Below are positions 44,618 through 57,079 of a stretch of 64,000 nt of DNA, one piece after another. The notes beneath the pieces were generated by a model. That model was given only the letters and a program-made list of their open reading frames with translations. It ran no database searches and was not told the DNA's origin. The stretch lies in NCBI RefSeq assembly GCF_008831075.1, contig NZ_WBJX01000001.1:540647-604646 (forward strand), in the 5' to 3' direction. This DNA is from Pseudoclavibacter terrae (GTDB taxonomy: Bacteria > Actinomycetota > Actinomycetes > Actinomycetales > Microbacteriaceae). The translations under genes were made by a program, and so were the position numbers. The first letter of the stretch is position 1; every line of letters begins with the position of its first letter.

Positions 44618-44631
44618 CGGCGCAACCGCCG

Positions 44632-44650
44632 AACATGTGACACATTAGTG
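44632..44650. promoter_or_regulatory. Hydroxyproline-regulon operator, site 1 (before the GntR gene)
   Basis: AACATGTGACACATTAGTG; its core ATGTG-A-CACAT is a perfect palindrome around a central base. Read on the minus strand it is CACTAATGTGTCACATGTT, matching sites 2 and 3. Lies 10 bases before the regulator start, so autoregulation is likely. Confidence 0.8.
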
Positions 44651-44660
44651 AGTGGGCGTG

Positions 44661-45398
44661 ATGGACACCGCTGAGGTGAGCTTACGCGTCTCGACCACAG
44701 TGAGCTCGATGAACGGGGTGCCCATGATCGACGCGTTGGACTTCAGGCCGGCCGCGCAGCAGTCGAACCTGCGAGCCACGATCGAGGACTCGGTCGCCGC
44801 GGCCATCGTGTCCGGCGGGCTGGCGGCGGGGACCCTCGTCTCCGTGCCGGCGCTCGCGGCACGCTTCGAGGTCTCGGCGACTCCGGTTCGCGAGGCCATG
44901 CTGAACCTCGAGAAGCTGGGCTTCGTGGAGCCCGTGCGGAACAAGGGCTTCCGCGTCACGCACGTCTCTGTGGAGGAGCTTCGGCAGATCGTCGAAGTCA
45001 GGCAGATGCTCGAGGTGCCCGTCGTCCGGGAGCTCGCTGCCGATTTCCCTGATGCACCCCGGACCGAGCTCCGTGACCTGGCGACACGGATCGATGCCGC
45101 GTCGGCGGCAGGCGACCTGCCTCTGTATCTCGCTGTCGACATCGAGTTCCACGAGCGGCTGCTCAGTCTGTCTGGCAATGCCCGGCTCGTGTCGATCGTG
45201 ACCGCGTTGCGGCGACAGACGAGGCTCACGGGGCTTACCGAGATGCTCGGGTCCGAAGAGCTCACCGCTTCGGCGCGCGAGCACGCCGACCTCCTCGTGC
45301 TGCTCGAGGCCGGCAAGGCGGATGAGGCTGCCGAGCTCATGCACCGCCACATCGGCCACGTCGTCGGCTGGTGGGCTGGCCTACCCGAAGAGGCTTAG
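44661..45398 (+). CDS. GntR-family (FCD) regulator of the hydroxyproline genes
   Basis: A 245-residue regulator. The winged helix spans about 35-100 (AAGTLVSVPALAARFEVSATPVREAMLNLEKLGF), and an FCD ligand domain follows with the usual acidic/His pattern (DIEFHERLLSLSG, AREHADLLVLLE, MHRHIGHVV). A 19-base palindromic motif occurs before this gene, before the ABC transporter operon 150 bases downstream and before the catabolic operon, so it most probably represses all three until a hydroxyproline-derived inducer binds. The start is uncertain: GTG 44652, ATG 44661 or ATG 44709 are all open; none has a strong ribosome site. FCD-type GntR regulators are known for amino-acid and hydroxyproline catabolism. 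Confidence 0.88.
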   Translation: MDTAEVSLRVSTTVSSMNGVPMIDALDFRPAAQQSNLRATIEDSVAAAIVSGGLAAGTLVSVPALAARFEVSATPVREAMLNLEKLGFVEPVRNKGFRVTHVSVEELRQIVEVRQMLEVPVVRELAADFPDAPRTELRDLATRIDAASAAGDLPLYLAVDIEFHERLLSLSGNARLVSIVTALRRQTRLTGLTEMLGSEELTASAREHADLLVLLEAGKADEAAELMHRHIGHVVGWWAGLPEEA

Positions 45399-45415
45399 CA
45401 AGCCCTCCACACAGC

Positions 45416-45441
45416 GAAACACTTTGTAACAACTGTGTTTC
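45416..45441. promoter_or_regulatory. AT-rich palindrome after the GntR gene
   Basis: GAAACAC and GTGTTTC flank a small inner palindrome TTGTAACAA. The stem is too weak for a good terminator. It lies between the regulator stop and operator site 2 and might be a binding site of another regulator. Confidence 0.4.
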
Positions 45442-45478
45442 AAGGGTGTTGAAAGGTCTTCTGCGGTCGTCCGCCGAA

Positions 45479-45497
45479 CAGTAATGTGTGACATCCC
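45479..45497. promoter_or_regulatory. Hydroxyproline-regulon operator, site 2 (before the ABC transporter)
   Basis: CAGTAATGTGTGACATCCC, 51 bases before the start of the binding-protein gene. Matches site 3 read on the minus strand (CAGTAATATGTCACACACC) and site 1 (CACTAATGTGTCACATGTT). Confidence 0.8.
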
Positions 45498-45548
45498 ATC
45501 ACCGGAGATGGTCCGGCGATTCTGACGTCTGTTCGGAAGGAACTCACC

Positions 45549-46748
45549 ATGACTGCACGTCGTTCCACCAGCCCTCGGGGTGCTGGCCTCTGGAAGAGGG
45601 TGCTCCTGCCTGGAGCCCTCCTCGCAACTGCCGCACTGGCCCTGACCGGATGCTCCGGAGGTGTCGCCGGAGGTGGGGACACCGCGTCCGAGGACGGACC
45701 GATCAAGCTGGGACTCGCGGCCCCCTTCTCGGGATCCGAGTCGGCCTTCGGCCCATACATGGAGAACGGCGCGAAGATGGCGATCGACGAGCTCAACGAG
45801 GCCGGTGGCGTCCTCGGCCGCCAACTCGAGCTGGTCACCGCCGACGACGCCTGTGACGCGACGAGCGCTACCGCCGCGGCGAACAAGCTCGTCACCGACG
45901 GGGTCGTCGCCTCGGTCGGCGGCTACTGCTCCGGAGCGACGCTCCCGACGCTGCCGATCTTCAACACGGCCGAGATTCCCATGGTGATCCCAGCGGCCAA
46001 CTCGAACCAGCTCGTCGCCGCCGGCCTCGACAACGTGTTCCTCATCAACGGAACCGGCACCCAGCAGGCTCAGGCCATGCTCACGTACGCCGAGAAGCAG
46101 GGCGTGAAGACGCTCGCGCTCGTCGACGACAACACGGACTACTCGACGGACCTCGCGAAGTCCGCCTCCGAGCAGGCCAAGGAGCTCGGCATCGAGGTCG
46201 TCCTCGAGGAGTCCGTCAACGCCGGTGAATCCGACTACGCGGCCAACGTCAACAAGGTCGTCTCGGCGAACCCGGACATGATGTATTGGACCGGCTACTA
46301 CCAGGAGGGCGGCCTGATCACGCAGCAGCTGCGTGCCGCCGGCTACACGGGCAAGGTCATGGTCGCCGACGGCTCGGTCGACGCGAAGTTCGCTGAGATC
46401 GCCGGCAGCTCCTCCGAGGGTGTGCTCGGCACGTTCACGCAGACCCCAGACATGCTCGAGGGTGCAACCGAGTGGATCGACGCCTACACCGAGAAGTTCG
46501 GTGCGGCCCCCGGCCCGTACTCCACGCAGAGCTACGACGCCGTCCGCGTCGTCGCCCAGGCGATCGAGGATGCAGGAAGCACTGAGGGGCCCGCGGTCAT
46601 CGAGGCGCTCAACGCGCTCGACGGCTTCGACATCTTCTCCGGCCCCCTCACCTTCACGGAAGAGGGCACGCTCACCGAGGGCGGATTCGCCATCGTCACC
46701 GTCGGACCCGACGGCACCTTCATCCTCGAGGATGACCTGAAGAGCTAG
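45549..46748 (+). CDS. livK: Branched-chain-type ABC transporter, substrate-binding lipoprotein
   Basis: A 399-residue periplasmic-binding protein of the LivK/type I fold. The N-terminus is a lipoprotein signal (basic, hydrophobic, then LALTGC with Cys at about residue 36), followed by a Gly-rich linker. The ligand cleft begins IKLGLAAPFSGSESAFG, then MAIDELNEAGGVLGRQLELV, VGGYCSGATLPTLPI and ALVDDNTDYSTDLA. A strong ribosome site (GGAAGGA) precedes the ATG. It should bind the nitrogen source handled by the adjacent catabolic genes, presumably trans-4-hydroxyproline or a related imino acid (inference). First gene of a five-gene importer operon under operator site 2; a hairpin separates it from the membrane genes. 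Confidence 0.9.
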   Translation: MTARRSTSPRGAGLWKRVLLPGALLATAALALTGCSGGVAGGGDTASEDGPIKLGLAAPFSGSESAFGPYMENGAKMAIDELNEAGGVLGRQLELVTADDACDATSATAAANKLVTDGVVASVGGYCSGATLPTLPIFNTAEIPMVIPAANSNQLVAAGLDNVFLINGTGTQQAQAMLTYAEKQGVKTLALVDDNTDYSTDLAKSASEQAKELGIEVVLEESVNAGESDYAANVNKVVSANPDMMYWTGYYQEGGLITQQLRAAGYTGKVMVADGSVDAKFAEIAGSSSEGVLGTFTQTPDMLEGATEWIDAYTEKFGAAPGPYSTQSYDAVRVVAQAIEDAGSTEGPAVIEALNALDGFDIFSGPLTFTEEGTLTEGGFAIVTVGPDGTFILEDDLKS

Positions 46749-46757
46749 TCAGCCACG

Positions 46758-46785
46758 GCGGGCGGGGAGGGAACTCCCCGCCCGC
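46758..46785 (+). terminator. Attenuating hairpin between livK and livH
   Basis: Perfect 12-base arms GCGGGCGGGGAG and inverse with the tetraloop GGAA, 10 bases after the livK stop. No U tract. It likely lowers expression of the membrane subunits relative to the binding protein by partial termination or by protecting the livK mRNA. Confidence 0.7.
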
Positions 46786-46805
46786 TTCTGCAGTCAGGAA
46801 CCACT

Positions 46806-47696
46806 GTGATTCAACTCATCATCGACGGGCTCTTCGTCGGATCCTTCTACGCGCTCGTCGCGCTCGGGTACAGCATGGTGTACGGCATCATCAAGCTGCT
46901 CAACTTCGCGCACGGCGACGTCTACATGGTCGGCGCGTTCGCCGGCCTCACGATCTTCTCGGCCTTCTCCGGCCTCGCCGGGGGCGGCATCCTCTCGATC
47001 CTGCTCGTCATGCTGCTCGCGATGATCTTCACGGGCATCCTCGGCGTGACGATCGAGCGGGTCGCCTACCGTCCGCTGCGCTCGAGCCCTCGACTCGCGG
47101 TGCTCATCACCGCGGTGGGCATGTCGTTCATCCTCGAGTACGGCGTGCGCCAGATCTTCGGGCCCGACCCGAAGGTGTACCCGACGCGTCTCGAAGGCGA
47201 GACGCTCGACCTCCTGGGCGGCCGCATCACGATGCCGCAGATCGTCATGATGCTCGTCGCGGCCGCCCTCATGTTCGGCCTCAACACCTACATCATGCGC
47301 TCGCGCGACGGGCGAGCCATGCGCGCCATCGCGCTCGACCCCACCGCCGCGCAGCTCATGGGCGTCAACGTCAACAAGGTCATCTCGCGCACCTTCTTCA
47401 TCGGCTCCGCCCTCGCAGGCGCCGCCGGCGTCATGGCGGGTGCCTACTACGGCACGATCGACTTCCTCGCGGGCTTCGTCATCGGGTTGAAGGCGTTCAC
47501 CGCAGCCGTCATCGGCGGCATCGGGAACCTCTACGGCGCCATGCTCGGCGGTCTCGTGCTCGGCCTGCTCGAGGCGTTCGGCACCCACTGGCTCGGCGGC
47601 GAGTGGCGAGACGTGTTCTCGTTCGCGTGCCTGATCCTCTTCCTGTCCTTCAGACCGACCGGCATCCTCGGTGCCCGCGTCGTGGAACGGATGTGA
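46806..47696 (+). CDS. livH: Branched-chain-type ABC transporter permease LivH
   Basis: A 296-residue LivH-type permease with about eight hydrophobic helices. LNFAHGDVYMVGAF in the first third, RAMRAIALDPTAAQLMGVNVNKV in the middle cytoplasmic loop, which contacts the ATPases, and AAVIGGIGNLYGAMLGGLVLG near the end are family landmarks. It starts at GTG 46806 and follows the hairpin after livK. Pairs with the LivM subunit encoded 4 bases downstream. Confidence 0.92.
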   Translation: MIQLIIDGLFVGSFYALVALGYSMVYGIIKLLNFAHGDVYMVGAFAGLTIFSAFSGLAGGGILSILLVMLLAMIFTGILGVTIERVAYRPLRSSPRLAVLITAVGMSFILEYGVRQIFGPDPKVYPTRLEGETLDLLGGRITMPQIVMMLVAAALMFGLNTYIMRSRDGRAMRAIALDPTAAQLMGVNVNKVISRTFFIGSALAGAAGVMAGAYYGTIDFLAGFVIGLKAFTAAVIGGIGNLYGAMLGGLVLGLLEAFGTHWLGGEWRDVFSFACLILFLSFRPTGILGARVVERM

Positions 47697-47700
47697 CCCC

Positions 47701-48831
47701 ATGACCGACATCAGACTCCAGGCGCCAGCGCCCACCGTCGAGCGGCCCACGCCGCGCACCGGCATCCGGAACCCGAAGACCTTCATGAACCTCGTGGGGC
47801 TCGTGCTGTTCCTCTTCGCCTTCCTGCTCCCGTTCATCAACGCGACGCCGTACGTCATCTCCATCGGCACATCCGCGATGATCTACATCATGCTCGCGAT
47901 GGGCCTCAACATCGTCGTCGGCTACGCGGGCCTCCTCGACCTCGGCTACTACGCCTTCTTCGCGGTCGGCGCGTACACGGCGGGCGTACTCAACACGCTG
48001 CTGGACATGCCGCTCATCGCGACGATCCCGTTCGTCATCGTGGCGTGCATCCTTGCCGGGCTCATCATCGGCGGGCCGACGCTGCGCCTGCGCAGCGACT
48101 ACCTCGCGATCGTCACGCTCGGCTTCGGCGAGATCATCCGGCTCACCGCGAACAACCTGGAGGTCACGGGCGGACCGTCGGGCATCTCCGGCATCGACAC
48201 GTTCGAGTTCTTCGGCTGGTCGTTCGCCGACGGCCTCACGGTCGGCGGCATCGAGTTCAACGGCAAGATCCTGCTGTACTTCCTCTGCGTCATCATCGCG
48301 GGAGGCGCCGCGATCATCGCGGCCTCTCGGCTCGGCAAGGGCAAGATGGGTCGCGCCTGGCGCGCCATCAAGGACGACGAGGACGCCGCAGAGGCGATGG
48401 GCGTCAACACCTACACGACGAAGCTCGGCGCGTACGTGCTCGGCGCGGTGTTCGGCGGCCTCGCCGGCGTGCTCATGGCGGCCCACCAGACGGCCATCAG
48501 CCCGACCTCGTTCGTGTTCCTCAACTCGGCGCTGCTGCTCATGGCGGTCGTGCTCGGCGGCATGGGCTCGATCCCGGGCGTCATCGTCGGCGCCCTGCTC
48601 GTCTCGCTGCTGCCCGAGATCCTCCGCGACTTCTCCGACTGGCGCTTCCTCGTCTTCGGCGTGCTGCTGGTGGTCATGATGATCTTCCGGCCGCAGGGCA
48701 TCTGGCCGGCGACCGCCATCCTGCCGTTCCTCAAGTCGCGGGCCAAGGGCGAGCCGCCGTCCCCGAAGGACGGGTTCTCCGCCCATGAGGCGCCGGATGC
48801 CAACATCGACCTCTCGAAGGAGCAGGCATGA
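47701..48831 (+). CDS. livM: Branched-chain-type ABC transporter permease LivM
   Basis: A 376-residue permease with a polar N-terminus of 30 residues and about nine helices. GLNIVVGYAGLLDLGYYAFFAVGAY, LRLRSDYLAIVTLGFGEIIRL and WRAIKDDEDAAEAMGVN are typical LivM sequences. ATG at 47701 is four bases after the livH stop; its own stop overlaps the livG ATG (48828-48831). Forms the heterodimeric channel with LivH. Confidence 0.92.
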   Translation: MTDIRLQAPAPTVERPTPRTGIRNPKTFMNLVGLVLFLFAFLLPFINATPYVISIGTSAMIYIMLAMGLNIVVGYAGLLDLGYYAFFAVGAYTAGVLNTLLDMPLIATIPFVIVACILAGLIIGGPTLRLRSDYLAIVTLGFGEIIRLTANNLEVTGGPSGISGIDTFEFFGWSFADGLTVGGIEFNGKILLYFLCVIIAGGAAIIAASRLGKGKMGRAWRAIKDDEDAAEAMGVNTYTTKLGAYVLGAVFGGLAGVLMAAHQTAISPTSFVFLNSALLLMAVVLGGMGSIPGVIVGALLVSLLPEILRDFSDWRFLVFGVLLVVMMIFRPQGIWPATAILPFLKSRAKGEPPSPKDGFSAHEAPDANIDLSKEQA

Positions 48832-49829
48832 GCCAGGGTTCAGGCACGGGCGAGGTCTACGGGACCGCGCCCATCGATGTGCCGAAGACGGAGTCGGTGA
48901 CCGCGGTCGCCGAGGAGTTCAGGCGGGCGCACGAGGGGGAGCCGCTGCTCTCCGTCCGCGACCTGCGCCTGCAGTTCGGTGGTGTGAAGGCCGTCGACGG
49001 CACGTCGTTCGACGCCTACGCGGGCGAGATCATCTCGGTGATCGGCCCGAACGGGGCCGGCAAGACGAGCGCGTTCAACTGCATCACGGGCTTCTACCGG
49101 CCGACGTCGGGCACGATCACCTTCGACGGCGTCGACATCATGCGCAAGCAGCCGTCGTCGATCACGCGCCTCGGGCTGAGTCGCACGTTCCAGAACGTGC
49201 GCATGTTCCGCGACATGTCGGTCATCGACAACGTGAAGACCGCCATGCACGCGCGCATCCGGCAGAACGTGTTCCAGACGATGCTGCACACGATCGGCTA
49301 CAAGAAGATCGAGGCGCAGGCGCTCGAGGACGCGCGCGGCTGGCTCGACTTCGTCGGCTACTCGCTCGACGACGACCTGCTCGCGTCGCAGCTGCCCTAC
49401 GGCGAGCAGCGGCGCGTGGAGATCGCCCGCGCGCTGGCCACGCAGCCCAAGCTGCTGCTGCTCGACGAGCCCGCGGCCGGTCTCAATCACAACGAGAAGC
49501 AGGAGCTGATCGCCCTCATCCGCAAGATCAGGGACCTCGGGGTCGGCATCGTGCTCATCGAGCACGACATGGGCCTCGTGATGGAGATCTCCGAGCGCGT
49601 GATCGTGCTCAACTTCGGCCGGGAGATCGCCGACGGCCTGCCGGAGGACGTCAAGAACGACCCGAGGGTCATCGAGGCGTACCTGGGGGTCGAGGACCCG
49701 GAGGACGAGGTCGCGGAGGAGGTCGCCGAAGAGCGGCTCGATGCTCCCGGACGGCCACGCGCCCTCCACGACCGGATCGACGAAGCGGACATCGCGGAGC
49801 AGGGCTCCGCGGGGGAGGAACGGTCATGA
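48828..49829 (+). CDS. livG: Branched-chain-type ABC transporter ATPase LivG
   Basis: A 333-residue ATP-binding subunit. Walker A GPNGAGKTSAFN, the LivG-type insertion TRLGLSRTFQNVRMF, ABC signature region LPYGEQRRVEIARAL, Walker B LLLLDEPAAGLNH and the H-loop IEHDMGLV are present. It has an unusual N-terminal extension of about 40 residues and an acidic C-terminal extension of about 50 (DEVAEEVAEE) not needed for the fold. Overlaps livM and livF by four bases each. Confidence 0.92.
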   Translation: MSQGSGTGEVYGTAPIDVPKTESVTAVAEEFRRAHEGEPLLSVRDLRLQFGGVKAVDGTSFDAYAGEIISVIGPNGAGKTSAFNCITGFYRPTSGTITFDGVDIMRKQPSSITRLGLSRTFQNVRMFRDMSVIDNVKTAMHARIRQNVFQTMLHTIGYKKIEAQALEDARGWLDFVGYSLDDDLLASQLPYGEQRRVEIARALATQPKLLLLDEPAAGLNHNEKQELIALIRKIRDLGVGIVLIEHDMGLVMEISERVIVLNFGREIADGLPEDVKNDPRVIEAYLGVEDPEDEVAEEVAEERLDAPGRPRALHDRIDEADIAEQGSAGEERS

Positions 49830-50536
49830 GCGCTGAACTCGAGGTGAAGGACGTCGACCTCTTCTACGGGCGTGTGCAGGCGCTGCGGGGGCTGTCGATC
49901 GAGGTGAACGAGGGTGAGGTCGTCTCGCTGCTCGGCAACAACGGTGCTGGCAAGACCAGCACGCTCACGATGCTCTCCGGGCTCGCCAGAGCAAAGAGCG
50001 GCACGATCACCTGGCGCGGCAAGGACATCTCGAGCGCCAAGCCGTGGGACCTCGTGCGCGACGGGCTCATCCACGTGCCTGAGGGGCGTCGGATCTTCTC
50101 GACCATGTCGGTGCACGAGAACCTCCTGCTCGGCGGCTACCAGGTCAAGGACCCGAAGGTCGTGGCCGATCGTGTCGAGGAGTGCTACGAGCTCATGCCG
50201 CGGCTGCTCGAGCGGCGCACGCAGCAGGGCGGCACCCTCTCGGGTGGCGAGCAGCAGATGGTCGCGATCGCGCGAGCGTACGTCGGCGGCCCGAAGCTGC
50301 TGCTGCTCGACGAGCCGTCGATGGGACTGGCGCCGCTTGTCGTGAAGCAGGTGATGGAGCTCATCGGGCGCATCAACGAGCGTGGCGCGACGGTGCTGCT
50401 CGTCGAGCAGAATGCGCGGGCGGCGCTCAAGGTCGCGCACCGCGCGTACGTCATCGAGCACGGGCATGTGACACTCTCCGGGCTCGCGTCCGATCTGGCG
50501 AAGGACAAGGCGGTCATCGAGGCCTACCTGGGCTGA
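49826..50536 (+). CDS. livF: Branched-chain-type ABC transporter ATPase LivF
   Basis: A 236-residue ATP-binding subunit: Walker A GNNGAGKTSTL, the LivF marker VPEGRRIFSTMSVHENLL, signature LSGGEQQMVAIARAY, Walker B LLLLDEPSMGLAP and VEQNARAAL. Last gene of the importer operon, coupled to livG by ATGA; a terminator hairpin follows six bases after its stop. Confidence 0.93.
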   Translation: MSAELEVKDVDLFYGRVQALRGLSIEVNEGEVVSLLGNNGAGKTSTLTMLSGLARAKSGTITWRGKDISSAKPWDLVRDGLIHVPEGRRIFSTMSVHENLLLGGYQVKDPKVVADRVEECYELMPRLLERRTQQGGTLSGGEQQMVAIARAYVGGPKLLLLDEPSMGLAPLVVKQVMELIGRINERGATVLLVEQNARAALKVAHRAYVIEHGHVTLSGLASDLAKDKAVIEAYLG

Positions 50537-50542
50537 CCACGA

Positions 50543-50574
50543 CCTGGCCCGTCCCGGATGCGGGGCGGGCCAGG
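50543..50574 (+). terminator. Terminator of the transporter operon
   Basis: Fourteen-base arms beginning CCTGGCCCG with one G-U pair and the loop GATG, just after the livF stop and before operator site 3. It isolates the importer from the catabolic operon. Confidence 0.8.
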
Positions 50575-50589
50575 CTTGCACGACCAACT

Positions 50590-50608
50590 GGTGTGTGACA
50601 TATTACTG
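50590..50608. promoter_or_regulatory. Hydroxyproline-regulon operator, site 3 (before the catabolic operon)
   Basis: GGTGTGTGACATATTACTG, 15 bases before the first catabolic start codon. The core TGTGTGACAT is identical to site 2, and the outer CAGTAAT of site 2 is present here as its inverse ATTACTG, so the full palindrome is CAGTAAT...ATTACTG. Confidence 0.8.
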
Positions 50609-50623
50609 TGATGGAGGTGCGGG

Positions 50624-51808
50624 ATGAGCAGCTACGACGTCGTCGTGATCGGCGGTGGCATCGTGGGCGCTGCCTGCGCGGCTGAGCTCGCCGGCCGAGG
50701 CCGGCGCGTGGCGCTCGTCGAGCGCGGTCGCGTCGCGAGCGGCACCAGCGCGCACTGCGAGGGCAACCTCCTCGTCTCCGACAAGGGGCCCGGCGCCGAG
50801 CTCGAGCTCTCGAAGCTCGCGAACGCCGCCTGGTCCAAGCTCTCGGGCAGCTTCCGCGAGGAGCTCGGCGACGACTTCCCAGACATCGAGTTCGAGGCCA
50901 AGGGCGGCCTCGTCGTCGCGACGACCGATGGGGGAGCGTCCGCGCTCCTCGACTTCGCGGCCACGCAGCGCACCGCCGACGTCGCGGCCGAGCCGGTCAC
51001 GATCTCCGAGGCGCGCAGGCTCGAGCCGTGGCTCACCGATCGCATGACCGCAGCCGTCTGGTACCCGGGCGACAGCCAGGTGCAGCCGACCATCGCGACC
51101 GAGGCGCTCGTCGCCCTCGCGCACCTGCGCGGGGCGAGCATCCTGGAGCACCACGAGGTGACGGGCGCCCTCCGCGACGGCGGCAGGCTCGTCGGCGTTC
51201 GCACGACTGCGGGAGACGTGCACGGTCGTGACGTCGTCGTCGCCGCCGGACCCTGGTCGGGTGAGGTGTCGGCGCTCCTTGGCGCACCGCTGCCCGTCCG
51301 GCCGCGACGGGGCGTTGTGCTCGTCACGGCGAAGATGCCGCAGCGGGTGTTCCACAAGGTCTACGACGCCGACTACGTCGGTGCCGTCGGTTCCGGTGAC
51401 GTCGCCCTCATGACCTCGAGCGTCGTGGAGTCGACACCGGGCGGCACGGTGCTCATCGGCTCGAGCCGCGAGCAGGTGGGCTTCGACGACGCGTTCCGCG
51501 CCAATGTGCTGAGCGAGCTCGCGAGGAAGGCCATCTCGATCTTCCCGTTCCTCACCGAGACGGCGATCATCCGCAGCTACTCCGGGTTCCGCCCGTACAT
51601 GCCCGATCACCTGCCCCTCATCGGTGCCGATCCACGACTTCCGGGTCTGTGGCACGCGACGGGCCACGAGGGGGCCGGCATCGGCCTCTCGCTGCCAACG
51701 GCCACGCTCATCGGCGACCTTATGGACGGGGCGCCGACGCAGATCGACGCCACCCAGTTCGCTCCGTCTCGACCGACCCTCGCCGCCGAGTTGGAGGCCG
51801 TCGCATGA
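50624..51808 (+). CDS. FAD-dependent oxidase/dehydrogenase subunit (DadA/SoxB-like), probable D-hydroxyproline dehydrogenase
   Basis: A 394-residue flavoprotein of the DAO/sarcosine-oxidase-beta group. The FAD loop is VVVIGGGIVGAACAAELAGRG (6-26), RGRVASGTSAHCEGN continues the binding site, and SYSGFRPYMPDHLPLIG with GHEGAGIGLSLPTA near the end is characteristic of amine and imino-acid oxidising members. It is coupled (4-bp overlap) to a small 2Fe-2S protein and a second FAD protein, the three-subunit plan of D-hydroxyproline dehydrogenases and related octopine/nopaline-type enzymes, which oxidise cis-4-hydroxy-D-proline to Pyr4H2C. GGAGG stands before the ATG. Membership of the hydroxyproline route is inferred from the neighbours. 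Confidence 0.87.
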   Translation: MSSYDVVVIGGGIVGAACAAELAGRGRRVALVERGRVASGTSAHCEGNLLVSDKGPGAELELSKLANAAWSKLSGSFREELGDDFPDIEFEAKGGLVVATTDGGASALLDFAATQRTADVAAEPVTISEARRLEPWLTDRMTAAVWYPGDSQVQPTIATEALVALAHLRGASILEHHEVTGALRDGGRLVGVRTTAGDVHGRDVVVAAGPWSGEVSALLGAPLPVRPRRGVVLVTAKMPQRVFHKVYDADYVGAVGSGDVALMTSSVVESTPGGTVLIGSSREQVGFDDAFRANVLSELARKAISIFPFLTETAIIRSYSGFRPYMPDHLPLIGADPRLPGLWHATGHEGAGIGLSLPTATLIGDLMDGAPTQIDATQFAPSRPTLAAELEAVA

Positions 51809-52083
51809 GCGAACGTGCAGTCCGGGGCGACGGGGTCGAGAAGCCCGTCCGCATCACGGTCGACGGCGAGCCCGTCGAGGGCATCGCGGGGCAGAGCATC
51901 GCGGGTGTCCTCCTCGGCTCCGGCCGCGTCGCCTGGCGCGAGACGGCGGTCGCGGGCAGGCCCCGCGGACTGTTCTGCGGCATCGGTGTGTGCTTCGACT
52001 GCCTCGTCACCGTCGACGGGGTTCCGGATGTGCGCGCCTGTCAGCGACGCGCGTGCGACGGGGACGAGGTGAGCTCGCAATGA
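51805..52083 (+). CDS. Small 2Fe-2S ferredoxin-like subunit
   Basis: A 92-residue protein with the cysteine ligand pattern C-x4-C-x2-C-x12-C in LFCGIGVCFDCLVTVDG followed by VRACQRRA, after a short beta-grasp start (VRITVDGEPVEG). It is the small electron-transfer subunit between the two FAD proteins of the dehydrogenase. The ATG overlaps the preceding stop, and its stop overlaps the next ATG (52080-52083), so all three are made together. Confidence 0.9.
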   Translation: MSERAVRGDGVEKPVRITVDGEPVEGIAGQSIAGVLLGSGRVAWRETAVAGRPRGLFCGIGVCFDCLVTVDGVPDVRACQRRACDGDEVSSQ

Positions 52084-53564
52084 CCTCGACGCAGCGTGGA
52101 CGGCGCCACGTCGCCGTCGTCGGCGGGGGACCAGCTGGTCTCGCGGCCGCAGTGGCCGCAGCCGAGCACGGCGCCCGCGTGACGCTCATCGAGTCGGGTC
52201 GCGAGCTCGGCGGCCAGTACTGGCGACACCTGCCGGGCGAGCGCGACGGTCACGGTCAGGCCGTTCTGCACCACGGCTGGTCGACCTACCAGGACCTTGA
52301 GCGTCGAGTTCGCTCGACCCCCGACATCACCGTGCTGGCCGAGACCAGCGTGTGGGCCGTGGATGCGCCGACTGCGGCGGGTCACGGTGCCGGCCTCGGC
52401 ATCCCGACGCTCCAGCTGCTGACCGGTCCTGCGGATGCCGCGACACGCGTTCCGTCGACGCTCGGGCCGGACGCCATCGTCATCGCGACCGGTGCCCACG
52501 ACCGCACCCTCCCGTTCCCGGGCTGGGACCTGCCCGGGGTCTCCACGGGCGGGGCTGCCCAGGCCTTCGCGAAGAGCGAGCGCATCGCGGTCGGCGGCAA
52601 CGTCGTCGTCGCGGGTGCCGGCCCGTTCCTGCTGCCCGTCGCTGCGTCCCTCGCGCAGGTGGGTTCGCGCGTCATCGAGGTCGTCGAAGCCAACCGCATC
52701 CCGCGCCTCGCCTCCGGCTGGCTGCCCAGGCCGTGGCAGCTGGCCGGTGCGCCGGGCAAGGTGAGCGAGCTCTTCGGCTACGTGGCAGGTCAGCTGCGTC
52801 ACCGCATCCCGTACCGCGTCGGCGAGGCCGTCGTGGAGGCGCACGGCGACGGCCGAGTCGAGCGCGTGACGATCGCCAGCGTCGACGCCGAGTGGCGGCC
52901 GATCCCGGGTAGTGAGCGGCAGGTGGCCTGCGACGCCGTGTGCGTCACCCACGGGTTCACGCCCCGCCTCGAGGTCGCGATCGCGGCCGGCTGCGCGCTG
53001 GGCGATGACAGATTCGTGGTCATTGACGAGTCGTGCGCGACGAGCGCGGGAGGCGTCTACGCGGCCGGGGAGGTGACCGGCATCGGGGGCGTCGACCTCT
53101 CGCTCGCGGAGGGGCGAGTCGCGGGGCACTGCGGCGCCGGCGGGTCGTCCAGGGACGCTCAGGTCAGCGACGCTCAGCGCAAGCGCGCGGTCTTCGGCGC
53201 GTTCGCCGCGCGCATCGATGCCGCCCATGGAGTGCGCCCGGGCTGGCAGGACTGGCTCCGCGACGACACGATCGTGTGCCGATGCGAGGAGGTCACCGCG
53301 GGCCAGCTCCGCCGGAAGGCTGCCGCCACCGGCTCACGCAGCCTGCGCTCCCAGAAGCTCGCCACCCGCGCCGGCCTGGGCATCTGCCAGGCACGCATCT
53401 GCGGCCGCAGCGCCGAAGAGCTGCTGCAGGCCGCGACAGGCTCAACCGGTGAACTCGACGAGGGCATCGTCGACCGCCGCCCCATCCAGACCCCCATCCG
53501 GCTCGCAGAGCTGGCAGGCATCTCAGAAGAGCAGCATCCCCTGACAGGAAGGCAAGACCCATGA
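52080..53564 (+). CDS. FAD/NAD(P)-binding subunit with C-terminal 2Fe-2S (BFD-like) domain
   Basis: A 494-residue flavoprotein (HcnB/octopine-oxidase-alpha type). The N-terminal FAD loop is AVVGGGPAGLAAAVAAAEHG; a second Rossmann loop reads VVVAGAGPFLLPVAA; VYAAGEVTGIGGVDLSLAEG closes the FAD site. The last 100 residues form a bacterioferritin-associated-ferredoxin-like domain with CRCEEVT and GLGICQARICG, cysteine ligands for another 2Fe-2S cluster. It is the large second subunit of the predicted D-hydroxyproline dehydrogenase, passing electrons onward. Translationally coupled at both ends. Confidence 0.88.
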   Translation: MTSTQRGRRHVAVVGGGPAGLAAAVAAAEHGARVTLIESGRELGGQYWRHLPGERDGHGQAVLHHGWSTYQDLERRVRSTPDITVLAETSVWAVDAPTAAGHGAGLGIPTLQLLTGPADAATRVPSTLGPDAIVIATGAHDRTLPFPGWDLPGVSTGGAAQAFAKSERIAVGGNVVVAGAGPFLLPVAASLAQVGSRVIEVVEANRIPRLASGWLPRPWQLAGAPGKVSELFGYVAGQLRHRIPYRVGEAVVEAHGDGRVERVTIASVDAEWRPIPGSERQVACDAVCVTHGFTPRLEVAIAAGCALGDDRFVVIDESCATSAGGVYAAGEVTGIGGVDLSLAEGRVAGHCGAGGSSRDAQVSDAQRKRAVFGAFAARIDAAHGVRPGWQDWLRDDTIVCRCEEVTAGQLRRKAAATGSRSLRSQKLATRAGLGICQARICGRSAEELLQAATGSTGELDEGIVDRRPIQTPIRLAELAGISEEQHPLTGRQDP

Positions 53565-54502
53565 CCGAAGCAGCTTCCACGCACCTCGACCTCGGCGGCG
53601 TCGTCGTCGCGACGGCCCTCCCATACAAGGAGGACGCCTCGGCACCCGCCGGACTCGCCGTCGACTACGACGCGTACGCCGAGCACTGCAACTGGCTCAT
53701 CGAGAACGGCTGCCGGGGTGTCGGCCCGAACGGCTCGCTCGGCGAGTACTCGTCCCTCACCGACGAGGAGCGACGCAAGGTCGTGCAGGTGGCCGTCGAG
53801 ACCGTCGGCGACCGCGGCATCGTCGTCGCGGGCGTGCACGGACCCGGCTGGCACCAGGCCCAGCACTGGACGCAGCTCGCGAAGGAGGACGGCGCCCACG
53901 GCGTGCTCTGCCTCCCGCCGACCATGTACCGCTCGGCGGACGCCGACGTCGTCGAGCACTTCGCGAAGGTCGCGGAGGTCGGCCTGCCCGTCATGATCTA
54001 CAACAACCCGCTGGACACGAAGGTCGACATCACGCCGAACCTCGTCGCCGAGATCGCGAAGATCGACGGCATCGTCGCCGTCAAGGAGTTCTCCGGGGAC
54101 GTGCGGCGCGCGTTCGAGATCCAGGAGGCCTGCGAGGCGGCCGGGTCGAGCATCGACATCATCGCGGGCAGCGACGACGTGCTCTTCGAGCTCATGATCG
54201 ACGGCGCGACGGGCTGGTTCGCGGGCTACCCCAACGTGTTCCCCGCGGAGGCCGTCGCGATCTACGACAACATGGCCGCTGGCCGCTACGTCGAGGCGCG
54301 CGAGATCTACAAGAGCCTCATCGCCGCCTTCCGCTGGGACTCGCGCCCGGAGTTCGTGCAGGCCATCAAGCTCGGGATGGACATGGTCGGCCGCAACGGC
54401 GGGCCCTGCCGTCCGCCGCGCGCGGCGCTCACGCAGGCCATGGAGGCGCAGGTGCGCGCCGACACGCAGCGCGCCCTCGACGCCCTCGCCGCCCTCCAGT
54501 AG
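53561..54502 (+). CDS. DapA-family lyase, probable 1-pyrroline-4-hydroxy-2-carboxylate deaminase
   Basis: A 313-residue dihydrodipicolinate synthase/N-acetylneuraminate lyase family protein. The Schiff-base Lys is in GIVAVKEFSGD, the Tyr in VMIYNNPLD, and GVGPNGSLGEYSSLTDEER corresponds to the GTTGE loop region (here GSLGE). In the hydroxyproline pathway the family member converts Pyr4H2C to 2-oxoglutarate semialdehyde with loss of ammonia; position between the dehydrogenase and the semialdehyde dehydrogenase makes this the best assignment. It overlaps the previous gene by four bases. Confidence 0.88.
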   Translation: MTEAASTHLDLGGVVVATALPYKEDASAPAGLAVDYDAYAEHCNWLIENGCRGVGPNGSLGEYSSLTDEERRKVVQVAVETVGDRGIVVAGVHGPGWHQAQHWTQLAKEDGAHGVLCLPPTMYRSADADVVEHFAKVAEVGLPVMIYNNPLDTKVDITPNLVAEIAKIDGIVAVKEFSGDVRRAFEIQEACEAAGSSIDIIAGSDDVLFELMIDGATGWFAGYPNVFPAEAVAIYDNMAAGRYVEAREIYKSLIAAFRWDSRPEFVQAIKLGMDMVGRNGGPCRPPRAALTQAMEAQVRADTQRALDALAALQ

Positions 54503-54540
54503 GTTCGCACCTTCCACTCCACAGCCTGAGGTCAACTGAC

Positions 54541-55548
54541 ATGCGAGCATCACGAGTCATCTCCGCCGTCGACTCCCACACCGAGGGGATGCCGACCAGG
54601 GTCGTCACGGGCGGAGTCGGGGTGATCCCCGGCGCGACCATGAACGAGAAGCGCCTCTACGTGCAGGAGCACCGTGACGACCTGCGCACGTTCCTCATGC
54701 GCGAGCCGCGTGGGCACTCCGCCATGAGCGGGAGCATCCTGCAACCGCCGACGCGACCCGACGCCGACTTCGGGGTCCTCTACATCGAGGTCTCCGGTCT
54801 GCTCCCGATGTGCGGGCACGGCACGATCGGGACAGCGACGGTGTTGGTCGAGACGGGGATGGTCGAGGTGCAGGAGCCGGAGACGGTGATCCGGCTGGAT
54901 ACGCCGGCCGGCCTCGTGATCGCTCGTGTGGAAGTGTGCGAAGGACGCGCTGTTAGCGTTACCATCGAGAACGTGCCCAGCTTCTGCGAACGCCTCGACG
55001 CCGTCGTCCCGGTGCCGGAACTCGGCATCGACGCGCTCCGGTACTCGCTGGCGTTCGGCGGGAACTACTACGCCATGGTCGACCTCGACGACCTCGACCT
55101 CCCGTTCGACCGAAGCCGCAAGGATGAGATCCTGCGCGCCGGCCTCGCCATCATGGACGCGATCAACACGCACGACGCGCCCCGGCATCCGACGATCGAG
55201 GGCGTCGACCACGTCCACCACGTCGAGTTCATCGCGCCGGGCTCCGACGCGGTCCACTCGCGGCACGCCATGGCGATCTACCCCGGCTGGTTCGACCGTT
55301 CCCCGTGCGGCACCGGCACGTCCGCACGCATGGCGGAGCTGCACGCCAGGGGCGAGCTGCCCCTGCACACCGATTTCGTCAACGAGTCGTTCATCGGCAC
55401 GAGCTTCACGGGCCGGCTCATCGACGAGGTGCAGGTCGGCGACCGCGCGGCCGTGATCCCCACCATCACGGGTCGCGCGTGGATCACCGGCATGGGCCAG
55501 TACCTGCTCGACCCGACAGACCCGTTCCCCGCAGGTTTCGAATTCTAG
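54541..55548 (+). CDS. Proline racemase family, probable 4-hydroxyproline 2-epimerase
   Basis: A 335-residue cofactor-independent epimerase. Both catalytic cysteines are present: MCGHGTIG in the first half and SPCGTGTSARMA in the second, so it is an epimerase/racemase rather than the Cys/Thr dehydratase variant. The start SAVDSHTEGMPTRVV is the family's N-terminal signature. In this operon it should convert trans-4-hydroxy-L-proline to cis-4-hydroxy-D-proline, the substrate of the dehydrogenase upstream. GAGG lies before the ATG; the gap to the preceding gene is 38 bases. Confidence 0.9.
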   Translation: MRASRVISAVDSHTEGMPTRVVTGGVGVIPGATMNEKRLYVQEHRDDLRTFLMREPRGHSAMSGSILQPPTRPDADFGVLYIEVSGLLPMCGHGTIGTATVLVETGMVEVQEPETVIRLDTPAGLVIARVEVCEGRAVSVTIENVPSFCERLDAVVPVPELGIDALRYSLAFGGNYYAMVDLDDLDLPFDRSRKDEILRAGLAIMDAINTHDAPRHPTIEGVDHVHHVEFIAPGSDAVHSRHAMAIYPGWFDRSPCGTGTSARMAELHARGELPLHTDFVNESFIGTSFTGRLIDEVQVGDRAAVIPTITGRAWITGMGQYLLDPTDPFPAGFEF

Positions 55549-55561
55549 ATTGGACTCATCG

Positions 55562-57079
55562 ATGAGCACACCCACCCCGCACACCAGCGACGCCGAGCTC
55601 GAGCAGATCCTCGCGGCATCCGCGCTCGCCGCCCCGGTCTGGGCGGCGACGCCCCCGGCCGAACGTGCGTCGGCGCTCATCGCGGTCGCGGACGCCCTCG
55701 ATCAGGCGGCCGGGGAGCTCATCCCCATCGGCATGCGGGAGACGGGCCTCGCGCAGGCGAGGCTCACGGGTGAGCTGAAGCGCACGACCGTGCAGATCCG
55801 CCTCTTCGCGGACGTCATCCGAGACGGCGCCTACCTCGACGTGCGCCTCGACGAGGCCGACCCCGACTTCGTGCTCGGCCCGCGGCCCGACGTGCGCCGG
55901 ATGCTCGTGCCCGTCGGCGTCGCCGTCAACTTCTCCGCCTCCAACTTCCCGTTCGCCTTCTCGGTGGCGGGCGGTGACTCGGCTGCGGCGCTCGCGGCGG
56001 GCTGCGCGCTCATCGTCAAGGGCCACTCCGGTCACCCGGAGCTCTCGGTCGCGACGGCGCGCGTCGTCGAGGACGCGCTCCGCGCGGCCGGAGCTCCCGA
56101 CGGGGTCTTCGCGCTTGTGCTCGGCCAGCAGGCCGGGGTCACCGTGCTCGAGGACGACCGCGTCGACGTCGGCACCTTCACGGGGTCGATCCGCGTGGGC
56201 CGCCTGCTCGCCGACAAGGCCGCGGCCCGCCCCCGGCCCATCCAGTTCTACGGGGAGCTCGGCAGCGTCAACCCGGTCTTCGTGACCGCTGCCGCGCTCG
56301 CCGAGCGCGGCGAGGAGATCGCGGCAGGCTACGCCGCGTCCGTCGCCGGTTCCGCTGGCCAGCTGTGCACGAAGCCCGGCTTCCTCTGGGTGCCCACGAC
56401 GGATGCCGCCGGCGAGCTCGAGCTGCGCGTCTCGCAGGCGGCCGAGCAGGCCGCGGAGCACCGCCTTCTGAACCCGAGCATCGGCCGGGCCTACCTCCAG
56501 CGCCGCGCCGACGTGCTCGCGGCCGACGGCGTGCGCGTCGTCGCCGAGGGCACCGTGCGCAGCGACGACGATGGCAACGTGTGGGCGACGCCGACGATCG
56601 TGGCCGTGCCCGCGAGCAAGCTCTCGGCGGGCGACGAGACGCTGCTCGACGAGGTCTTCGGTCCGTTCTCCGTGATCGTCGAGTACGACGACGAAGCCTC
56701 GCTCGCGCCCAGCCTCGACGAGCTGTACGTCGGCAACCTCACTGGCACCGTGCACGCCGCCGCGGGGGAGCAGTCGCCAGCGCTGTCATCGCTCGTCGCA
56801 GGGCTGGCGAGGAAGACGGGACGCGTCCTCTTCGGCGGGTGGCCCACCGGGGTCGCCGTCACTCCGGCCATGCAGCACGGCGGCCCGTACCCGGCGACCT
56901 CGAACGACACGTCGACCTCGGTCGGTACCGCCTCCATCTCCCGCTTCCTGCGCGGCGTCGCCTACCAGGGTGCGCCTCAGGAGGCCCTGCCCGAGCCGCT
57001 GCAGGACGCCAACCCCTGGGGTGTGCCGCAGCAGCGCGCGGCAGCAGGACAGTCGGCGAGCTGGGGCTCGCAGCGCTGA
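55562..57079 (+). CDS. 2-Oxoglutarate semialdehyde dehydrogenase (aldehyde dehydrogenase family)
   Basis: A 505-residue aldehyde dehydrogenase of the KGSADH type III group, found with hydroxyproline and sugar-acid routes. The coenzyme site contains VNFSASNFPFAFSVAGGD and VKGHSGHP, the catalytic Glu is in FYGELGSVNPVF and the nucleophile Cys in SAGQLCTKPG. It oxidises 2-oxoglutarate semialdehyde to 2-oxoglutarate with NADP+ (or NAD+), the last step of the pathway. The start used is ATG 55562; a TTG 12 bases earlier is open. It ends the catabolic operon, 18 bases from the convergent LLM gene. Confidence 0.9.
   Translation: MSTPTPHTSDAELEQILAASALAAPVWAATPPAERASALIAVADALDQAAGELIPIGMRETGLAQARLTGELKRTTVQIRLFADVIRDGAYLDVRLDEADPDFVLGPRPDVRRMLVPVGVAVNFSASNFPFAFSVAGGDSAAALAAGCALIVKGHSGHPELSVATARVVEDALRAAGAPDGVFALVLGQQAGVTVLEDDRVDVGTFTGSIRVGRLLADKAAARPRPIQFYGELGSVNPVFVTAAALAERGEEIAAGYAASVAGSAGQLCTKPGFLWVPTTDAAGELELRVSQAAEQAAEHRLLNPSIGRAYLQRRADVLAADGVRVVAEGTVRSDDDGNVWATPTIVAVPASKLSAGDETLLDEVFGPFSVIVEYDDEASLAPSLDELYVGNLTGTVHAAAGEQSPALSSLVAGLARKTGRVLFGGWPTGVAVTPAMQHGGPYPATSNDTSTSVGTASISRFLRGVAYQGAPQEALPEPLQDANPWGVPQQRAAAGQSASWGSQR

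Follow-up and report, generated by a model that had tools for sequence, protein, structure and literature searches.

A characterised hydroxyproline regulon of Actinomycetota is that of Streptomyces coelicolor A3(2), in which HypR (SCO6294), a zinc-binding protein of the GntR/FadR subfamily encoded beside the catabolic genes SCO6289-6293, represses a five-enzyme operon and is required for hydroxyproline induction (Kotowska et al. 2019, PMC6608401). Footprinting places HypR on TACAATGTCAC, at the -10 region of the promoter of its own gene, and neither L- nor D-hydroxyproline changed its binding in vitro (PMC6608401). A stretch of 64,000 nucleotides from Pseudoclavibacter terrae (contig NZ_WBJX01000001.1, positions 540,647 to 604,646), referred to below as the window, very probably carries a three-operator HypR-type regulon for trans-4-hydroxy-L-proline, made up of a repressor, a Liv-type importer, and a six-gene catabolic operon. 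The regulator, the operator core, and the catabolic operon are known in kind from S. coelicolor HypR. What looks new here is the importer class, a clear palindrome, and exchangeable supply modules, the Liv-type (HAAT) importer being less expected than the other components of the regulon.

From left to right, the locus consists of operator 1, the GntR/FCD gene, operator 2, livK-H-M-G-F, a hairpin, operator 3, and the six catabolic genes. As in S. coelicolor, the regulator combines a GntR/FadR-subfamily domain with an FCD domain, a site precedes its own gene, and the operator core is ATGTCAC; the same five enzymes are encoded in the same order (dehydrogenase beta, gamma, and alpha subunits, deaminase, and epimerase; PMC6608401, Table 2). 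The operator flanks differ: those of the window are TAAT/ATTA-like and give a clear 17-bp palindrome, whereas those of Streptomyces are TGCA/TACA and their symmetry is called not clear (PMC6608401). The growth substrate, hydroxyproline, would also be the same, as judged in the window organism from the genes. In contrast to S. coelicolor, the window has a 2-oxoglutarate semialdehyde dehydrogenase (KGSADH) gene within the operon and a HAAT importer under the operator, and its three operators precede no collagenase or 2-oxoglutarate dehydrogenase gene, unlike those of the S. coelicolor HypR regulon.

HypR of Sinorhizobium meliloti is reportedly the subject of a study by White et al. 2012. The proteobacterial HypR systems (S. 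meliloti; Leyn et al. 2016, PMC5343134) share with the window GntR-family control, frequent autoregulation, and transporters that vary by lineage. The proteobacterial ones named are HypMNPQ (ABC), HypT (MFS), and HypABC (TRAP) (PMC5343134); the Liv-type, peptide-type, and AGCS modules seen here are not among them.

By analogy with the characterised Streptomyces relative, repression and induction in the window organism may be pictured as follows. The GntR/FCD repressor, probably as a dimer, would bind a 17-bp palindrome (consensus TAATRTGTSACAYRTTA) at three promoters, those of its own gene, of the importer, and of the catabolic operon, and would block transcription there, and a build-up of hydroxyproline or, more likely, of a hydroxyproline metabolite would lift the repression. 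Hydroxyproline would be taken up by the LivKHMGF-type ABC importer. The epimerase would convert trans-4-hydroxy-L-proline to cis-4-hydroxy-D-proline, which a three-subunit flavin dehydrogenase would oxidise, and a DapA-like deaminase would form 2-oxoglutarate semialdehyde for oxidation to 2-oxoglutarate by KGSADH. Because binding of the Streptomyces protein is unchanged by L- or D-hydroxyproline, a gel shift unaffected by hydroxyproline would not refute this model.

Operator 1 (44631 to 44650, minus strand) lies upstream of the GntR gene, with the 17-bp element TAATGTGTCACATGTTC at 44631 to 44647 and the 19-mer at 44632 to 44650, and is proposed as an autoregulatory site. Operator 2 (45479 to 45498, plus strand) lies about 50 bp upstream of livK and contains TAATGTGTGACATCCCA at 45482 to 45498 and the 19-mer at 45479 to 45497. 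Operator 3 (50589 to 50608, minus strand) is 15 bp upstream of the start codon of the catabolic operon, that of the flavin adenine dinucleotide (FAD) dehydrogenase gene, and has TAATATGTCACACACCA on the minus strand at 50589 to 50605 and the 19-mer at 50590 to 50608. Site 3 contains the core as ATGTCAC, site 2 has this sequence when its other strand is read, and site 1 has GTGTCAC, one base off. In the window, the consensus 19-mer at up to 3 mismatches has exactly three matches (0 in 100 shuffles), and the 12-bp core TAATRTGTSACA at up to 1 mismatch also has three, all exact (shuffle mean, 0.04). In the genome as a whole (3,912,938 bases on 11 contigs), there are three exact copies of the core and a fourth with one mismatch (reversed-pattern control, 0), and the 17-bp palindrome at up to 3 mismatches is found only at the three places (control, 0). 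An earlier note on this DNA had placed a 19-bp operator before the GntR gene, the importer, and the catabolic operon and nowhere else, and the scans of window and genome agree with it on all three places; its asymmetric 19-mer gives way to a 17-bp palindrome with unequal arms. This palindromic nature was seen by comparison with relatives, and the opposite strands of the three 19-mers therefore carry little information.

Chance as the origin of the motif is ruled out by the window shuffles, the genome-wide controls, and the family tally given below. The fourth genomic site, at C1:1281657 with one core mismatch, fails the 17-mer test and is treated as chance; the two predicted frames downstream of it have no Pfam match at 1e-5. 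Cores resembling TGTGN(n)CACA also serve CRP-family regulators, and the palindromes might on that ground belong to some other regulator, such as a CRP/FNR-type or global factor, with the adjacent GntR gene incidental. We regard this as extremely improbable. A global regulator would have many sites and this genome has three, a count that rules out such an owner; the core co-occurs with the GntR gene in the genomes surveyed; and published HypR operators have the same ATGTCAC core, with HypR itself footprinted on one of them (PMC6608401).

Conservation within the genus also favours the HypR-type reading. The block CATGTGACACATTA of operator 1 is kept in 4/4 aligned Pseudoclavibacter sequences amid diverged flanks, the block GGTGTGTGACATATTACT of operator 3 is kept in L109 and L110, and operator 2 is identical in these two regions, where the entire leader downstream of it is kept as well. 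L110 is from P. helvolus DSM 20419, which has the same gene cluster. All three operators form nearly unbroken blocks in L109 and L110, as does operator 1 in G073, and the DNA around operators 1 and 3 has diverged.

The family survey covered 150 genomes, with the GntR gene called at an E value of ≤1e-30. The gene is present in 32 of them and the exact core in 24. The earlier note had raised the question of whether the motif follows these genes in relatives, and the core does so: it occurs in 21/32 genomes with the GntR gene versus 3/118 without it (Fisher P = 9e-15, a guide only, as the genomes are related and not independent). Summed over rows, the core has 39 matches in the family genomes versus 8 for the reversed core. 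The neighbourhood analysis took in 28 of the 32 GntR-positive genomes (G021, G044, G114, and G126 were left out), and 32 regions (1.06 Mb) contain 65 sites at up to 3 mismatches versus 3 for the reversed pattern. These sites precede the first genes of units, namely, DAO (24/27), GH127 (10/10), AGCS (3/3), and LivK (4/9). Further upstream sites belong to t3HypD-like genes (4/10), GntR (9/30), DapA (1/27), Xaa-Pro aminopeptidase (1/13), and other genes (11/441), and there are none before PyrRed (0/28), ProRac (0/28), Fer2 (0/25), or KGSADH (0/22) or before LivH/M/G/F, OppA, OppB, OppC, OppDF, hydrolase, and OCD genes of the family regions. The isolated-core regions G000c, G053b, G133, and G104, which have no hydroxyproline genes, were left out of this tally, which would gain from them a few sites lacking such a gene; isolated sites in G003 (C1:1500970 and C2:280323) and G036 also stand outside it.

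Five family livK genes have no site of their own. In four of their clusters (G064, G084, G141, and G075), livK follows GntR in the same direction and a site at up to 3 mismatches lies upstream of the unit, with one extra gene between site and GntR in G075; in G047, no such site was found. Genes in relatives were called by a simple codon-usage script, and called starts are sometimes too early. In G129 (L063:15345-16873), a near-perfect operator with one mismatch stands shortly before the Xaa-Pro aminopeptidase domain and the called 1,049-aa frame runs over it, so that the true gene probably starts downstream of the operator. In G033 (L048:3900-9700), a sugar-type ABC importer and a hydantoinase/oxoprolinase gene lie behind an exact core site.

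A second set, 80 named loci found with the GntR profile and taken with 10-kb flanks, reaches well beyond the family. Here the palindrome at up to 3 mismatches stands upstream of DAO (26/55), DapA (16/62), LivK (10/17, with 4 more at 4 mismatches and none at up to 3 in shuffles), GntR (14/80), OppA (5/14), t3HypD-like (3/19), GH127 (1/7), and AGCS (1/2) genes, compared with none upstream of PyrRed (0/55), ProRac (0/60), LivM (0/17), or OppC (0/16) and none in shuffled sequence. The motif drifts with phylogenetic distance. Streptomyces and Kitasatospora loci (among others, L181, L184, L186, and L187) carry the exact TACAATGTCAC before the GntR gene, and in L181 and L186, the published string TGCAATGTCAC stands just before the DAO dehydrogenase gene. 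In the Streptomyces locus L181, at about 15.5 kb, TGCAATGTCAC is present as two overlapping inverted copies before the dehydrogenase gene that form one long palindrome, which fits a dimer and the palindrome of the window's family.

The regulator gene itself, a hypR-like gene for a putative GntR/FCD repressor of the FadR subfamily, occupies 44724 to 45398 on the plus strand, and its product matches PF00392 (E = 1.1e-12) and PF07729 (E = 9.1e-24). Its ATG at 44724 is kept in 4/4 aligned Pseudoclavibacter sequences, as is the in-frame GTG at 44676, and the GTG at 44652 is kept in 3/4, being lost in G073. ATG 44724 is thus more likely to be the start than GTG 44652; with it, operator 1 is 73 bp upstream, whereas the site would abut a start at GTG 44652. 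The protein is 95% identical in P. helvolus. Residues D139, H143, H187, H209, and H212, which we take to be the metal-holding Asp/His set of the FCD domain, are invariant in 28/28 family rows of alignment A1; the regulator on contig 168 of G101, which is intact, was left out of it because its match ran past the normal stop codon. In a tree of 114 GntR rows, one larger group holds both the window protein, placed within a clade of 63 rows (99/100), and most Streptomyces rows, which belong to another clade, of 35 rows (99/89). These features mark the predicted protein as a HypR-type regulator of Actinomycetota. This kinship and the strongly positive co-occurrence of core and genes support the earlier proposal that the GntR protein controls all three units.

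The same genome has a second GntR gene (C1:767350), located with an OCD-family reductase gene and a t3HypD-like proline-racemase gene at C1:767000-770000 (L089:7354-9985). It was considered as a member of the regulon and appears to be separate, since none of the 17-mer matches of the genome lies there; the genes there probably form a trans-3-hydroxyproline system of their own. In four relatives (G064, G075, G084, and G141), a t3HypD-like gene does stand behind the palindrome. The t3HypD-like proteins seen here have Cys/Cys motifs, unlike the characterised dehydratases (PMC4113996). Another genome of the genus, G073 (contig 27, about 167 to 171 kb; L006 and L035), retains the regulator (94% identity) with its own operator and the KGSADH gene. 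The importer and other catabolic genes are not at this locus, no epimerase was found in the genome, and the pattern resembles a naturally occurring loss of the regulon by deletion.

The importer is encoded by a full HAAT set on the plus strand: a livK-like substrate-binding protein gene (45549 to 46748; Pfam Peripla_BP_6), whose product is the proposed hydroxyproline-binding protein, genes for the livH-like (46806 to 47696) and livM-like (47671 to 48831) permeases, and genes for the livG-like (48828 to 49829) and livF-like (49826 to 50536) ATPases, the last four named from NCBIfam. It shares its five components, their order, and their families with the LivKHMGF branched-chain importers and differs from them in pocket positions, as we take these to be, in linkage to hydroxyproline genes in 9/9 family genomes, and in scores below the NCBIfam Liv cut-offs (LivK, 225.9 of 477 bits; LivH, 234.6 of 379; LivM, 302 of 366; LivG, 311.1 of 362; LivF, 256 of 441). 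Between the importer operon and operator 3, a hairpin with a 14-pair stem and no T run (50543 to 50574, plus strand) perhaps marks the end of the liv transcript. The region from 50530 to 50590 folds at -37 kcal/mol (z = -5.1; 0/200 shuffles as low), the stem is kept in L109 and L110, and a scan for T-run terminators found none at the hairpin.

The clade of the window LivK (≥59% identity) occurs in 9/150 family genomes, all GntR positive and all with the gene beside the regulator or catabolic genes (hypergeometric P = 3.4e-7, with genomes treated as independent); two further, weak matches (32 to 33%) are in family genomes without the regulator. Among the named loci, 17/80 have LivK relatives (57 to 97% identity; 36% in L116). 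LivK-bearing loci are found in Pseudoclavibacter, Agromyces, Microbacterium, Cryobacterium, Terrimesophilobacter, Blastococcus, Streptosporangium, Microtetraspora, Actinomadura, and Nocardia, and the exact published Streptomyces string TGCAATGTCAC precedes livK in Streptosporangium L156 and Microtetraspora L175. Mapping importer presence onto the GntR tree takes 19 changes, of which well-supported branches force at least 17 (shuffle mean, 23.5; 1/500 shuffles as low), although 10-kb flanks may hide importers and inflate the count. The importer thus appears to have been gained or lost many times.

Thirteen LivK positions were chosen for comparison, which we take to line or adjoin the ligand site of the leucine-binding protein. 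The signature YCS 77-79, AANS 100-103, G121, Y150, Y202, D226, and YS 276-277 is identical in 23 of 26 hydroxyproline-linked LivK proteins and has one change in each of the other three, including L116; 25 of the 26 are distinct, as G075 and L130 are identical and probably represent the same assembly. Of 31 control proteins extracted (from 29 Peripla_BP_6 loci and the two weak family matches), 27 were kept, comprising 26 Peripla_BP_6 proteins and one weak family match; L189, L192, L204, and L107 were dropped by eye as misread near contig ends. The signature is absent in 26/27 of these controls and present in one, L194. Neighbourhoods were fetched for 20 of the 27, and that of L194 (L219) is itself a hydroxyproline cluster, with GntR, LivKHMGF, epimerase, deaminase, three dehydrogenase subunits, and a weak KGSADH match; none of the other 19 has a match to any pathway gene or to the GntR gene. 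The signature test confirms the link of the clade, and the pocket is not separated from overall homology.

Co-regulation, the phylogenetic profile, and the pocket signature point to hydroxyproline as the ligand, and the claim of the earlier note that a LivKHMGF-type importer carries this substrate is well supported by them. An importer for ordinary branched-chain amino acids, present in the cluster by chance or for nitrogen supply, would agree with the family name and with the NCBIfam subfamily "branched-chain amino acid" (below cut-off). It is nonetheless very improbable, as the 26 linked proteins share fixed replacements at the presumed pocket positions of the leucine-binding protein (N for T102, S for N103 with one Ala, G for D121, and D for E226), 9/9 family members of the clade occur with the GntR gene, and the at least 17 changes on the GntR tree mean that the pairing was not simply inherited once. 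It is quite possible, if somewhat short of an even prospect, that the transporter is instead a broad imino-acid importer (for proline, 3- and 4-hydroxyproline, and perhaps proline betaine) in an otherwise identical regulon. The best PDB match of the window LivK is 3ip5, presumably Atu2422, a binding protein for gamma-aminobutyric acid and proline, and the window protein shares its Asp where the leucine-binding protein has Glu226. The importer also adjoins t3HypD-like genes in Streptosporangium, Microtetraspora, and Nocardia, with an OCD gene too in the first two. However, a general proline importer should be more widespread, and the clade was not seen outside hydroxyproline-regulator genomes among the 150 of the family. 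Such breadth would refine the importer part and is compatible with the rest of the HypR-type explanation. To our knowledge, a HAAT importer specific for hydroxyproline would be the first such Liv system. Searches of an open-access literature collection, with subscription journals mostly outside its scope, yielded neither a Liv-type hydroxyproline importer nor such a palindrome.

The catabolic operon, on the plus strand, begins with three dehydrogenase genes: one for an FAD-dependent cis-4-hydroxy-D-proline dehydrogenase subunit (50624 to 51808; SCO6289-like, DAO family, named from profiles with the substrate taken from context), one for a small ferredoxin-like subunit of 92 aa (51805 to 52083; SCO6290-like), which also lies between the same flanking subunits in relatives, and one for a pyridine-nucleotide oxidoreductase-like subunit with Fer2_BFD (52080 to 53564; SCO6291-like, Pfam). 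These are followed by genes for a putative Pyr4H2C deaminase of the DapA/DHDPS family (53561 to 54502; profiles, substrate from context), a proline-racemase-family 4-hydroxyproline 2-epimerase (54541 to 55548), and KGSADH of the aldehyde dehydrogenase family (55550 to 57079; Pfam Aldedh). The epimerase stays under the NCBIfam cut-offs (proline racemase, 351.3 of 556 bits; 4-hydroxyproline epimerase NF010578, 321.4 of 376 bits), and its name therefore rests on motifs and context. Its Cys/Cys motifs, PMCGHGTI and DRSPCGTGTSA, do not by themselves separate an epimerase from a proline racemase, since proline racemase has Cys/Cys, as do several characterised epimerases, and one characterised epimerase is Ser/Cys (PMC4113996). 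The linked three-subunit dehydrogenase, DapA-like deaminase, and epimerase genes are all present in the operon. Pfam and NCBIfam profiles thus recover the gene content that the earlier note had listed: a GntR regulator, here seen to have an FCD domain, five genes for a LivKHMGF-type importer, and a catabolic set of six.

Several observations weigh against the regulon as described. The right arm of operator 2 is poor, with 3 mismatches to the 17-bp palindrome, and a sigma-70-type promoter scan of the region found no match; we therefore make no claim that the window sites overlap a -10 box. A site precedes just 9/30 family GntR genes, so autoregulation is not general, and in the named loci, the palindrome is weaker (26/55 DAO, 14/80 GntR, and 1/7 GH127 genes) and also stands before 3/28 OppF-like and 1/22 KGSADH genes. 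Most Streptomyces regulators fall apart from the window clade in a tree whose rows do not include S. coelicolor HypR (SCO6294). On the importer side, 19/28 fetched GntR-positive family genomes lack this transporter, and the pathway therefore does not need it; the L219 LivK is 61% identical to that of the window, and the signature test is thus not independent of overall homology. The 92-aa ferredoxin-like subunit has no NCBIfam match, and the NCBIfam matches of KGSADH are far below the cut-off, so its name rests on context.

In relatives, the same operator stands before other supply genes. It precedes a GH127 beta-L-arabinofuranosidase gene in 10 fetched family regions, in nine of which genes for a peptide-type ABC importer, an alpha/beta hydrolase, and a Xaa-Pro aminopeptidase come after GH127 (e.g., L051:5199-15500, from G120); the tenth, G053, has a comparable set that lacks the hydrolase. 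This GH127 clade (≥58% identity) is present in 11/150 genomes, all GntR positive, and more distant GH127 proteins are common (61/150 genomes with a match at E ≤ 1e-60); the window genome has no GH127 of this clade. An AGCS symporter lies behind a site in three regions, G100, G085, and G148, and the latter two also carry the GH127 module. Beta-L-arabinofuranosides of hydroxyproline-rich glycoproteins from plants are reported substrates of GH127 enzymes (PMC10850190, PMC7263609). As in Bifidobacterium HypBA, which concerns hydroxyproline-linked beta-L-arabinooligosaccharides (same sources), GH127 and an ABC importer share one cluster in relatives, where GH127 differs in being under a hydroxyproline operator with a peptide-type importer and a Xaa-Pro aminopeptidase. 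The module is likely to serve the utilisation of plant hydroxyproline-rich glycoproteins, which adds a second line of support for hydroxyproline as the theme and points to extensin-type glycoproteins as its source in GH127-bearing relatives.

In G085 (L055:5401-7641) and G148 (L059:4304-6550), a protein of about 748 aa has an LPXTG-like C-terminal end and a HEFGH zinc-protease-like motif, and operator-like sites lie between its gene and the divergent GH127 module. For the version in G148, neither Pfam nor NCBIfam gave a match at the thresholds used. The protein of these two genomes is perhaps a counterpart of the collagenase of the Streptomyces HypR regulon.

Plant cell walls and collagen are rich in hydroxyproline, and we know of little on the uptake of this compound by Gram-positive soil and plant bacteria. 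We see an even chance that the HypR-type repressor in Microbacteriaceae and other Actinomycetota runs the harvest of plant hydroxyproline-rich glycoproteins (extensins) through exchangeable modules (GH127 with peptide importer and Xaa-Pro aminopeptidase, HAAT importer, or AGCS symporter) feeding one catabolic core, with the window as the free-hydroxyproline version. The window's palindrome offers a reading of the unclear symmetry in the Streptomyces HypR operator. The regulon also suggests a substrate for a whole importer clade that is otherwise called branched-chain amino acid transporters by default, and it connects a group of arabinofuranosidases, peptidases, and peptide importers with proteins rich in hydroxyproline. 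The operator is a simple search handle, in that genes located downstream of it become candidates for a role in obtaining or degrading hydroxyproline.

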